DNA of 34,567 bases, taken from assembly GCA_001797185.1 (NCBI GenBank), contig MGOS01000095.1:12829-47395 (forward strand), written 5' to 3'. Source of the stretch: Clostridiales bacterium GWB2_37_7. Its GTDB lineage: Bacteria > Bacillota > Clostridia > Lutisporales > Lutisporaceae. A model generated the notes under the pieces. It did no database searches. It was not told the DNA's origin and worked only from the letters and a program-made list of their open reading frames with translations. Below are positions 26,438 through 31,505 of this stretch, piece by piece. The position numbers and the translations under genes were made by a program. How positions within the stretch are numbered: the stretch's first letter is position 1; each line of letters opens with the position of its first letter.

Positions 26438-26494
26438 TTTTAACCTTTTGGGACAAAAAAGGTCCAAGTGGGACTATGTATAGGGGGAATAAGA

Positions 26495-27466
26495 ATGAAG
26501 AATATTGCTGTATTAACCAGCGGGGGAGATGCCCCAGGTATGAACGCTGCTATTAGAGCAGTTGTAAGAAGCGGAATAAATAGCGGACTTAGGGTTTTTG
26601 GAATAAAAAGAGGCTACAATGGGCTGATCCAAGGGGATATTCAGGAAATGAAAATGTCTTCCGTAGCTGATATTATACAAAGAGGCGGTACAATATTAAG
26701 AACAGCTAGAAGTGAAGAATTTAAGACGCCAGAAGGCTTAGCAAAGGCAGTAAATGTTGCGAAGATATTCAATATTGATGGTATTGTAGTAATAGGGGGA
26801 GATGGTTCCTTTGCCGGAGCGCAGAAGCTTACTGAAAGTGGAATTGCTTGCATAGGAATTCCAGGCACCATAGACAATGATTTGGCTTATACTGACTTTA
26901 CAATTGGCTTTGATACGGCGGTTAACAATGTATTGGATGCCATTAATAAAATTAGGGATACTTCAACCTCTCATGAAAGAGTGAGTATTATAGAAGTAAT
27001 GGGTAGACATTGTGGTGATATCGCTTTGCATGCCGGAATTGCAGGAGGAGCAGAAAGCATTATTGTTCCAGAAATAGAATTCTCAGTAGAAGATATATGC
27101 AGGAAGCTAATACAAGGCAAAAACAGGGGAAAGCTGCATAGCATAATTGTACTGGCAGAAGGTGCTGGAGATGGTGTCAAACTGGAAGAGAAAATTCGAT
27201 CTATGGTGGATATGGAAGTAAGGGCTACGATTTTAGGATATATACAAAGAGGCGGAAATGCTACTGCTGTTGACCGTTTGCTGGCAAGCAGAATGGGCGC
27301 AAAGGCTGTGGAGCTTTTGCTAGAAGGCAAGGAAGGCAGAGTTGTCGGTATCAAAGACAACAAAATCTTTGATATGGAAATTCATGAAGCACTCGCTATG
27401 AAAAAAATATTCAATAAGGATTTATATCAGCTATCTGATATTTTATCGAACAATCTGTCTGATTAA
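26495..27466 (+). CDS. pfkA: ATP-dependent 6-phosphofructokinase
   Basis: [39 protein letters not shown] (ATP-type GGDGS and PGTIDND); ATG 26495 with aggggg RBS. Confidence 0.96.
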
Positions 27467-27608
27467 ACCTGTCTTTTCTTAAAAATGTAGTCTTAAATGC
27501 CTAAAAGTGCTATAATATATAGATGTATTATGCTGTTAATTAGCTTATGTAAAGTATTAAATGAAAATAAAATATCATTTTAAGACTACAATAATAAGGA
27601 GGAATATA

Positions 27609-28880
27609 ATGTCTATGCTAGTTGGAAATTGTCTTGTTGCTCAGTCGGGAGGTCCTACTTCCGTAATTAACGCCAGTGCTTGTGGAGTAATCCAAGAAGC
27701 CTTTAAAACCGGAGAAATCAATCAGGTTTATGGTGCATTAAATGGAATCGCCGGAGTGCTGAATGAAGATTTATTTTCTTTCAATGAAGAAGCTCCGGAG
27801 GAAATAGAGCTTCTCAAGGTTACGCCTGCTTCAGCTCTTGGTTCCTGCAGATACAAGCTGAAATCTATAGAGCAAAGTGAAGGAGACTTCAAAAGGATAA
27901 TTGAGGTATTTAAGGCACATAATATAAGATATTTCTTCTACATTGGCGGAAATGACTCAATGGACACAGCACATAAGGTAAGCAAATATGCACAAAGTGT
28001 TGGTTATGACCTCAAATCTATAGGCGTACCAAAGACAATAGACAATGATTTGCCAATCACAGACCATACACCGGGTTTTGGAAGTACAGCTAAGTTTATT
28101 GCTACTTCAATGAAGGAAGTAGGTCTGGATGCAAGGGTTTATGACTATAAGACAGTAACAATCTGTGAGCTAATGGGTAGAAATGCAGGCTGGATAACGG
28201 CTTCCTCAGCTCTGGCAAAAACTCATGAGGACGATGCACCTCACTTTATATATCTCCCAGAAATACCATTCTCCTTCGAGCAGTTTGACAAAGATATCAG
28301 ATATGCTTTGGATAAATACAACTATGCGGTAGTTGCTGTCTCAGAAGGAATAAAGGATGCTGAAGGCAAGTATATTTCAGAAATGTGCAGTACTGTGCAA
28401 ATGAAGGATGCTTTTGGTCATGTACAGTTAGGTGGAGTTTCGACAGTACTTGAGTCCTATGTATCTCAAAACATTTGCAAGAAGGTCAGAGCTGTAAATT
28501 ACAGTACAATCCAAAGATGTGCAGCACATTGTGCTTCTCTTACGGATAATGAAGAAGCTTATCTTTGCGGACAAATGGCAGTGAGATATGCCATTGAGGG
28601 GCATACAGGCAAGATGGTAGGTCTATTTAGAGATAATACTTCTGAATATAAGTGTTCAACACAGCTAATAGATCTGGATGATGTGGCAAATAAAGAAAAG
28701 CCTATTCCTAGGGAATGGATAAATGAAGATGGAAACTTTGTAGAACAGCAAGTGATAGATTACATGAGACCCTTGATAATGGGTGAAGTAAAAATAAGAA
28801 TGGAAAACGGCATTCCAAGATACTGCAAGCTAAGCAAAAAGGTGATAAACAAAAGTGTAGAGCCTTGGGATGCAAAATAA
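27609..28880 (+). CDS. Pyrophosphate-type 6-phosphofructokinase
   Basis: QSGGPTSVINASACGV, IGGNDSMDTA, GVPKTIDNDLPITDHTPGFGS (K at the PPi-diagnostic position); RBS aaggagg. Confidence 0.9.
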   Translation: MSMLVGNCLVAQSGGPTSVINASACGVIQEAFKTGEINQVYGALNGIAGVLNEDLFSFNEEAPEEIELLKVTPASALGSCRYKLKSIEQSEGDFKRIIEVFKAHNIRYFFYIGGNDSMDTAHKVSKYAQSVGYDLKSIGVPKTIDNDLPITDHTPGFGSTAKFIATSMKEVGLDARVYDYKTVTICELMGRNAGWITASSALAKTHEDDAPHFIYLPEIPFSFEQFDKDIRYALDKYNYAVVAVSEGIKDAEGKYISEMCSTVQMKDAFGHVQLGGVSTVLESYVSQNICKKVRAVNYSTIQRCAAHCASLTDNEEAYLCGQMAVRYAIEGHTGKMVGLFRDNTSEYKCSTQLIDLDDVANKEKPIPREWINEDGNFVEQQVIDYMRPLIMGEVKIRMENGIPRYCKLSKKVINKSVEPWDAK

Positions 28881-28901: not shown

Positions 28902-30656
28902 ATGCGGAGAACGAAAATTGTTTGTACAATAGGGCCGGCTAGTGAAAATGAAGAAATGCTGATTCAACTTGTAAGCGCAGGTATGAATGTAGCTAGACTT
29001 AATTTTTCTCACGGCAATCATGAGGAACACAAAAAAAGAATAGATTCCATAAAAAAGGTTAGGCAAATGCTTCAAAAGCCTATCGCAATTATGTTGGATA
29101 CAAAGGGGCCTGAGGTAAGACTGGGCAGCTTTAAAGACGGTGCAGCTGAGATTAAGTCAGGGGATCAGTTTACGCTCACGGTAGAGGATGTGTTGGGCGA
29201 TAGCACGAGATGCAGCATAACCTACAAGGAGCTACCAAAGGAAGTCAGCGAAGGAACCAGGATACTTATTGCTGACGGTCTTATCGAGCTTAGAGCTGTT
29301 GGTAAAACTGAAACAGAGGTTATTTGTAACGTAGTAAACGGTGGCACTTTGGCCGATCGTAAGAATGTGAATATACCGGGGGCTACTTCCAAGCTGCCTG
29401 CAATTACTCAAAAGGATATATCTGACCTTATTTTTGGTATCGAAAATGAGATAGACATTGTGGCAGCTTCCTTTATCAGAAAAGCAGCAGATGTATTGGA
29501 AATAAGAAAAATTCTTGAACAGAACAATGGAAGCTTTATAAGTATCATTTCGAAAATTGAGAATCAAGAAGGCGTGGACAATATTGATGAAATACTTAAG
29601 GTATCTGACGGCTTGATGGTAGCAAGAGGAGACTTAGGTGTGGAATTGCCTGCCGAGGAAATACCTCTGACTCAAAAGATGCTTATAAAGAAGTCAAATG
29701 AAGCTGGCAAGCCTGTAATTACTGCTACCCAGATGCTGGATTCCATGACTAGAAATCCAAGACCAACAAGAGCAGAGGTTACAGATATAGCCAACTCTAT
29801 ATTTGATGGTACAGATGCCATCATGCTGTCAGGGGAAACTGCAGCAGGTAAATATCCAATAGATGCAGTGAAGACGATGGCGACAATTGCGGAGCGTACT
29901 GAAAAGGATTTGGACTATAGTCGTGTAGAAGGGAAAGTAGCTTATAAAGGCGACGTTACTGTGGCAAATGCCATCAGTCATGCTTCCTGTACAACTGCCT
30001 ATGAGCTGGGGGCAGCTGCAATCATTACACCAACCCAATCAGGTTCAACTGCCAGGATGGTATCAAAATTCAGACCGAAGGCTCCAATCATTGCAGCAAC
30101 CTTTGATGAAAGAGTTAGAAGAAAGCTCTGTTTAAGCTTTGGCGTACATTCTGTGCTTATAAAGGGGATAGACAGTACGGATGATTTAATAGAGCAGAGT
30201 GTAAACCAAGCTATCGTTCATGAATACATAACCAGCGGAGATTTGGTTGTGATTACTGCAGGTGTACCTGCTGGTGTAGCCGGCACCACCAACCTGATTA
30301 AGGTTCATATCGTTGGAAACATCGCGGCTAGAGGCATTGGTGTAGGTCAACATTCTGTAACTGGTAAGGTTGCTGTCATAAGAGACTTGGAAAAGGATGC
30401 AGCTAAGGTTGAAGAGGGAGATATACTTGTAGTTGTAAGCACTGACAGGGATGTTGTACCTTTGATGAAAATGGCTTCTGCCTTTATCGTTGAAGAAGGC
30501 GGTATAACCTCACATGCTGCAATAGTAGGTATTGCCTTAGGCAAACCTGTTATTGTTGGAGTTGCCAACGCTATGGATATATTTAAGGATGGTCAGATTG
30601 TAACGATGGATACAGTTCGCGGCTTGATATATAAAGGTACTGCCAGAGTATTGTAA
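28902..30656 (+). CDS. pyk: Pyruvate kinase with C-terminal PEP-utilizing domain
   Basis: RRTKIVCTIGPASENEEML, LDTKGPEVR, ATQMLDSM; C-terminal VEEGGITSHAAIVGIALGKPVIVG. Confidence 0.97.
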   Translation: MRRTKIVCTIGPASENEEMLIQLVSAGMNVARLNFSHGNHEEHKKRIDSIKKVRQMLQKPIAIMLDTKGPEVRLGSFKDGAAEIKSGDQFTLTVEDVLGDSTRCSITYKELPKEVSEGTRILIADGLIELRAVGKTETEVICNVVNGGTLADRKNVNIPGATSKLPAITQKDISDLIFGIENEIDIVAASFIRKAADVLEIRKILEQNNGSFISIISKIENQEGVDNIDEILKVSDGLMVARGDLGVELPAEEIPLTQKMLIKKSNEAGKPVITATQMLDSMTRNPRPTRAEVTDIANSIFDGTDAIMLSGETAAGKYPIDAVKTMATIAERTEKDLDYSRVEGKVAYKGDVTVANAISHASCTTAYELGAAAIITPTQSGSTARMVSKFRPKAPIIAATFDERVRRKLCLSFGVHSVLIKGIDSTDDLIEQSVNQAIVHEYITSGDLVVITAGVPAGVAGTTNLIKVHIVGNIAARGIGVGQHSVTGKVAVIRDLEKDAAKVEEGDILVVVSTDRDVVPLMKMASAFIVEEGGITSHAAIVGIALGKPVIVGVANAMDIFKDGQIVTMDTVRGLIYKGTARVL

Positions 30657-30682: not shown

Positions 30683-30704
30683 TGAGAGCTAGAAATAGCT
30701 CTCA
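30683..30704 (+). repeat. 9-bp GAAA-tetraloop hairpin
   Basis: TGAGAGCTA-GAAA-TAGCTCTCA. Confidence 0.7.
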
Positions 30705-30724
30705 GATTGATAACGTACTTGTAG

Positions 30725-30937
30725 AAAAATAAAAGTTTTGTATTAAGGCGCATTGTTATACAGTTTGTGTTGTACTCTGTGAAGAGAGGCTATAAAGTTC
30801 GTAAGCTGGCACGGATGCCAGGCGCTGATTCAGAGGCAAGGATGCCTCATTGAATCAGGTAGGACTTTTTAGTCTCACAAGCAGTCAAGTACAACCAAGC
30901 TGTATATTTTTGTGCTGTATACAAAGCTTTTATTTTT
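30725..30937 (+). ncRNA. Candidate structured ncRNA downstream of pyk
   Basis: Outer 19-bp helix 725-743/919-937; inner 19-bp helix 757-776/888-906 with one bulged U; hairpins 806-821 and 825-858; 863-874 hairpin (coordinates in the 30000s). Confidence 0.72.
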
Positions 30938-31070
30938 ATTACGCATTACCAATAGTCTTAGAGATAGAAATAGAAATAGCTCTCTTTTTATCTACTGCTT
31001 AAATTTATTTGTGGTAAAATATTTATATAGATTTATCTAACTGCTTATAATCAAGAATAGGAGAAAAGCT

Positions 31071-31505
31071 ATGCAAAGAAGCATCACTAAACTAACAACA
31101 AGATACTATGAAACAGATCAAATGGGGGTCATCCATCACAGCAATTATTATAGATATTTTGAAGTTGCTCGGACGGACTACTTAAAAATAATAATTGGGT
31201 TGACCTATAAGGATATTGAGCGAATGGGAGTAAGAATGCCAGTGACAGAAACGCACTGCAAGTATAAGGCTTCTGCACTTTATGATGATGAAATTACAAT
31301 AACAACGACTGTAAGAGAAATGACCGTTGCAAGAATAACCTTTGATTATGCAATTACCAGAGAAATAGATGGAGCCGTCATTGCAGAGGGTGCTACAGTC
31401 CATGCATTGACAAACGGCGATAATAAGCCCATTAATCTTAAAAAATACAGGGCGGAATTGTATCAACAACTCTTCGCCGCTGTCAATACTGAAATAACTG
31501 AGTAA
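31071..31505 (+). CDS. Acyl-CoA thioesterase, YbgC/4HBT family
   Basis: TRYYETDQMGVIHHSNYYRYFEVARTDYL hotdog signature; RBS aggaga. Confidence 0.92.
   Translation: MQRSITKLTTRYYETDQMGVIHHSNYYRYFEVARTDYLKIIIGLTYKDIERMGVRMPVTETHCKYKASALYDDEITITTTVREMTVARITFDYAITREIDGAVIAEGATVHALTNGDNKPINLKKYRAELYQQLFAAVNTEITE

Follow-up and report, generated by a model that had tools for sequence, protein, structure and literature searches.

Downstream of pyk

The window, which is the whole stretch of 34,567 nucleotides of Clostridiales bacterium GWB2_37_7 that was analyzed, contains a gene for pyruvate kinase (pyk) and, downstream of it, a highly structured element bracketed by two copies of a terminator hairpin and followed by a thioesterase-family gene. 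Tandem phosphofructokinase-like ORFs (332 and 439 aa; 26468-28880), called by eye from their translation, lie just upstream of pyk. The features of the locus are as follows.

28902..30656, + strand: pyk (pyruvate kinase with PEP-utilisers domain; Pfam PF00224, PF02887, PF00391), upstream of the element and co-oriented
30684..30703, + strand: upstream terminator hairpin copy GAGAGCTAGAAATAGCTCTC, lacking a T-run (direct-repeat test against cross-paired flanks; T-run check)
30703..30957, + strand: whole mobile element (dispersed copies with the same ends, TIR pattern scan, empty site in a congener)
30725..30937, + strand: long imperfect hairpin comprising both helices (MFE, z -13.6, consensus pairs of the genus copies)
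30753..30910, + strand: TwoAYGGAY-like core (match to RF01731 at 33.2 bits and E 0.0017, short of the gathering score of 43)
30800..30805, + strand: conserved 5' junction strand CGUAAG (48-copy alignment)
30806..30821, + strand: hairpin 1, CUGGCA[CGGA]UGCCAG, candidate CsrA site 1 (fold, loop GGA, stem covariation)
30825..30858, + strand: hairpin 2, bulged, CUGAUUC..GAGGCA-AGGA-UGCCUC..GAAUCAG, candidate CsrA site 2 (fold, loop GGA, stem covariation)
30833-30848, + strand: tip of hairpin 2, GAGGCA[AGGA]UGCCUC (same loop as in the flagellin leader of the same genome)
30858..30862, + strand: conserved 3' junction strand GGUAG (48-copy alignment)
30971..30989, + strand: downstream terminator hairpin copy TAGAAATAGCTCTC (30971-30984), then TTTTT (direct-repeat test, T-run check)
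31071..31505, + strand: thioesterase-family gene, directly 3' of pyk in a congener (Pfam PF13279; L109)

The initial annotation had described positions 30725-30937 as two long helices that enclose a branched core without an ORF, and the fold agrees with most of this description. The outer helix (30725-30743/30919-30937) comprises 19 bp with one G-U pair, and the second helix (30757-30776/30888-30906) contains one bulged U. The structure is far more stable than expected by chance (z -13.6): its MFE is -102.8 kcal/mol, whereas 200 dinucleotide shuffles average -51.5 kcal/mol (sd 3.8) and none of them reaches its stability. Both GGA hairpins of the core, CUGGCA-CGGA-UGCCAG and the bulged hairpin with the AGGA loop, are present in the sequence and in the fold, and a search for ORFs of at least 60 aa found none that covers the region. 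A further hairpin that had been postulated, GACU-UUUU-AGUC, is absent from both the MFE structure and the consensus of 16 copies from the genus; in both, the strand in this region pairs with GAGAGGCUAUAAAGUUCG in an inner stem, so that the supposed purine-rich single strand is mostly helical. The consensus comprises 75 pairs, 13 of which show double changes that preserve the pair, and the structure of the element is well supported. The feature reaches beyond the annotated region to about 30703-30957 (limits approximate to a few bases), with the terminator hairpin copies on both flanks, and has inner arms enclosed by terminal inverted repeats (CAGATTGATAACG... / ...CATTACCAATAGTC).

Dispersal and insertion at terminators

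The draft genome harbors eight near-full copies of the element, which are 89-95% identical, and several fragments or solo ends. Searches with blastn recovered many copies (87-92%) in a congener (G002) and diverged copies in G001 and G004, with no matches in the other sampled genomes. The copies end alike, near CAGATTGATGACAAACTTGCAG and the inverted form of this sequence. Among the solo ends and mini-derivatives in the same genome (L009, L010, L011, and L012), L011 consists of both TIRs joined without the core, and L012, which follows a gene, is reduced to an inverted repeat and a T-run, resembling a domesticated terminator.

The conservation downstream of pyk that had initially been considered is at odds with the dispersal of the copies and with the pyk locus of a congener (contig JAQSYB010000252.1, L109), where the thioesterase gene follows 38 bp after a pyk with 82% DNA identity to that of the window, with neither element nor terminator in between. 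Because of the dispersed copies and this element-less locus, the position next to pyk is incidental.

Seven of the 16 genus copies are flanked on both sides by direct repeats of 12-21 bp, which are terminator hairpins and whose scores exceed those of every cross-paired flank (maximum 9.5). In the window, the identical stretch at 30690-30703 represents the left part of the target duplication, and the downstream hairpin copy is the one that still resembles a terminator. The same asymmetry is found in L001, L005, L006, and L043, where no more than 2-3 Ts follow the hairpin copy on the gene side, against 4-5 for the far copy; L003 is an exception, with a T-run also on the gene side. Almost all genus copies (14 of 16) follow a gene on their own strand. 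This orientation bias does not extend beyond the genus (19 with, 23 against) and was rejected as a general rule; placement in 3'UTRs may be specific to the subfamily of the window.

The complete genome G057 contains related elements with a length of 284-287 bp and the TIR CTGCAATTCGTAATAT; 12 of 13 copies show flanking repeats, which measure 6-11 bp (mean 8.2 versus 3.8 for cross-pairs). Terminal inverted repeats and target-site duplications, the features expected of a MITE, occur in both sets of elements. No transposase with the same ends was detected in G057 or in the TIR scan of G000 and G002, using TIR pattern scans and 14 regions of G057 whose ORFs were judged by reading, in drafts that are incomplete. 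The mobility of the element is well supported. In two of the G057 copies (L202 and L203), a further palindromic repeat of a different kind (CAATCATTACGTGGCA..AGGCTTGACATATATAC) is nested in the right arm. In G402 (L204-L209), the very long, G+C-rich arms look complementary inside each copy and differ among copies, which suggests that the arms are copied from each other and do not drift independently.

Relationship to TwoAYGGAY

The element in the window did not reach the gathering score of any Rfam family. Its best sub-threshold match, and the only plausible one, is TwoAYGGAY (RF01731), with the 33.2 bits listed above; matches to SCARNA1, CRISPR-DR, and JA01 were taken as chance. The resemblance to 6S RNA, the raiA motif, and OLE RNA suggested at the outset was not reflected in the Rfam search, where none of these models matched at the gathering score or at E<=10. 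Homology to RF01731 is bridged by elements in G001 and G004, which match the window element by blastn (G001:C147, E 3.8e-6; G004:C78, E 3.0e-5) and pass the RF01731 cut-off at the same place. Congeneric homologs score 46-58 bits against RF01731, and those matched by blastn score 46-48 bits. The two hairpins that give the family its name are both present, as A-CGGA-U (30812-30815) and A-AGGA-U (30839-30842), the second with an A and not a Y before the GGA. By sequence comparison, the window element is a divergent relative of TwoAYGGAY and not a member at the Rfam threshold. RF01731 is multi-copy in many Clostridia, with >10 matches in several genomes; the passages of the published accounts considered here (PMC2864571, PMC4333381) do not mention mobility of TwoAYGGAY.

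Conservation of the core and its loops

Among 48 diverse copies, which have a mean column identity of 38%, GGA is kept in the loop of hairpin 1 in 41 and in that of hairpin 2 in 45 (corrected by reading from automatic counts of 42 and 46, where a GGA in the stem of L088 and L092 had been miscounted), a conservation that is partly due to ascertainment, as many of these copies were found with the RF01731 model and the genus copies by blastn. The stem columns of both hairpins vary with compensatory pairs, and the covariation in the 48-copy alignment (0.340 versus 0.152 when shuffled) was not reached in any of 500 shuffles. RNAalifold, applied to the 48-sequence MAFFT alignment, found hairpin 1 alone, owing to misalignment; MAFFT misplaces the gap in hairpin 1 of the genus copies. 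Because misalignment limited RNAalifold, pairs were counted on the named structure, in an alignment that is still imperfect.

CACGAUG is a recurrent alternative loop that replaces xGGA in several unrelated lineages, either in hairpin 1 (L002, L062, L088, L099, and L103) or in hairpin 2 (L041, L092, and L096), and no element among the 48 copies has it in both. Hairpin 1 has lost its GGA in 12 of the 16 genus copies, mostly to CACGAUG, so that many genus copies retain one candidate CsrA site.

Candidate CsrA sites and the flagellin leader

In the passages considered here, Gardner and Eldai (PMC4333381) proposed that the xGGA loops of TwoAYGGAY bind CsrA; at the time of this clostridial prediction in 2014, CsrA-sequestering RNAs were known from Gammaproteobacteria alone. 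In the genome that contains the window, csrA and fliW adjoin the flagellin gene, and the flagellin leader contains a hairpin, AGUCAGAA[AGGA]UUCUGACU, 37 nt before the start codon. Of 15 leaders from element-bearing genomes, 14 have a stem-xGGA-stem hairpin ahead of the start codon (shuffled mean 0.34), a test covering the 15 genomes with a resolved csrA-type leader; the leaders of five others are partly resolved. The leaders of G057, AGGCA[UGGA]UGCCU, and G333, GCGGCA[AGGA]UGCCGC, share letters with element hairpins. As expected of a CsrA-sequestering RNA, the GGA-loop hairpins of the element match the flagellin leader of the same organism, a likely target of CsrA.

CsrA is present in 32 of the 34 RF01731-positive genomes versus 105 of the 359 others, and flhA in 34 of 34 versus 122 of 359, among genomes that are not phylogenetically independent. 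When flagellated genomes are considered alone, the association of CsrA with RF01731 is not significant (p=0.37). Co-occurrence was rejected as proof of CsrA binding because flagella explain it equally well.

Origin and putative function of the element

We propose that the element is MITE-like and non-autonomous, that it belongs to a divergent subfamily of TwoAYGGAY type, and that it entered the intrinsic terminator after pyk. Its insertion would have produced two copies of the terminator hairpin, of which only the far one kept the T-run. Since the hairpin on the gene side mostly lacks a T-run and the far copy has one, transcripts of the upstream genes would be expected to include the element; transcription of pyk would run through it and stop beyond. 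According to the computed structure, the RNA in the extended 3'UTR would form a long stem carrying two hairpins with xGGA loops. Because these hairpins resemble the predicted CsrA site of the flagellin leader in the same genome, every insertion would supply one or two further CsrA sites, which might titrate CsrA or mark the host mRNA for CsrA. To this reading, in which a MITE-like element enters terminators and adds a two-site candidate CsrA-binding RNA to host 3'UTRs, we assign a probability of roughly 0.55. That the element is a mobile, divergent TwoAYGGAY-type element inserted at a terminator is very likely. Its RNA probably binds CsrA. The element may have the role of a mobile CsrA decoy; we are inclined to slight doubt as to whether it acts as a decoy or in 3'UTR regulation via CsrA.

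A purely selfish MITE without any role in the cell, whose inverted repeat and hairpins serve transposition only, e.g., as DNA hairpins for a transposase, would equally have TIRs, target duplications, dispersal in multiple copies, and an empty site, and neither the many copies with one hairpin lacking GGA nor the absence of an orientation bias outside the genus would be surprising. However, the ends and the duplication lengths vary by lineage (12-21 bp terminators here, 6-11 bp in G057) and the loops of the core are fixed, which is the reverse of what recognition of the ends alone predicts. Moreover, pairs are kept more often than neutrally expected in the genus (48 of 73 one-sided changes versus 31.5, counted as cells and not as independent events), and the element loops match those of flagellin leaders, which makes a purely selfish element unlikely. 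It is less likely still, and indeed improbable, that the element is mainly a transcription terminator or a stabilizer of mRNA 3' ends that acts via its long helix and A/T tracts: the very stable helix with its oligo-U side, the position after genes, and the truncated copy L012 would fit such a function, but the near-invariant GGA loops and the CGUAA/GGUAG junction, which recur across families and would be incidental, are left unexplained. The reading as a separate ncRNA gene that follows pyk and resembles 6S, raiA, or OLE RNA, initially inferred from the high structure and the lack of an ORF, is contradicted by the repetitive nature of the element and by the empty site. It finds no matching Rfam model among the three and has become highly implausible, so that what stands of that assignment is a conserved, structured, RNA-like element.

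The TwoAYGGAY family and the idea that it binds CsrA were known beforehand; the mobility, the insertion at terminators, and the identity with the leader are new as far as the searched literature shows, where nothing on the family of the element was found under MITE and ncRNA, MITE and CsrA, or terminator and IS. The hairpin identity between element and leader provides independent evidence for the clostridial CsrA prediction of 2014, as set out in the passages considered (PMC4333381), and the copies described here show a TwoAYGGAY-type RNA that travels as a transposable element. If the proposed reading is true, regulatory RNA sponges can originate and shift their copy number via transposition. 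It is a still more tentative notion that a mobile family, through its entry into intrinsic terminators, installs copies of the CsrA sites of flagellin leaders in 3'UTRs across clostridial genomes, which would constitute a distributed, evolvable sponge outside Gammaproteobacteria.

Comparison with known systems

Like bacterial MITEs, RUP, and BOX, the element is short and non-coding, possesses TIRs and target duplications, and occurs in multiple copies; unlike these, it has a conserved RNA core that is common to elements with different ends and, in the genus, is located at terminators. With TwoAYGGAY (RF01731), as described in the relevant passages of Weinberg et al. 2010 (PMC2864571), it has in common the basal stem, the two xGGA-loop hairpins, and a similar junction. 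TwoAYGGAY is spread over Clostridia, as are the relatives found here, and the congeneric relatives pass the cut-off, whereas the window copy falls below 43 bits, and its subfamily has long TIRs and is found at terminators.

The hairpins of the element carry GGA in the loop, as do those of CsrB, CsrC, RsmX, RsmY, and RsmZ; these are stand-alone sRNA genes of Gammaproteobacteria, whereas the element is a dispersed mobile repeat that is likely transcribed as part of a 3'UTR. In Bacillus subtilis, the flagellin (hag) leader controls translation in cis and carries a second GGA at its Shine-Dalgarno site, and in both respects it differs from the element. It is the xGGA-loop stem that the element shares with the CsrA-bound hag leader, and the leader tips of G057 and G333 consist of the very letters of element hairpins.
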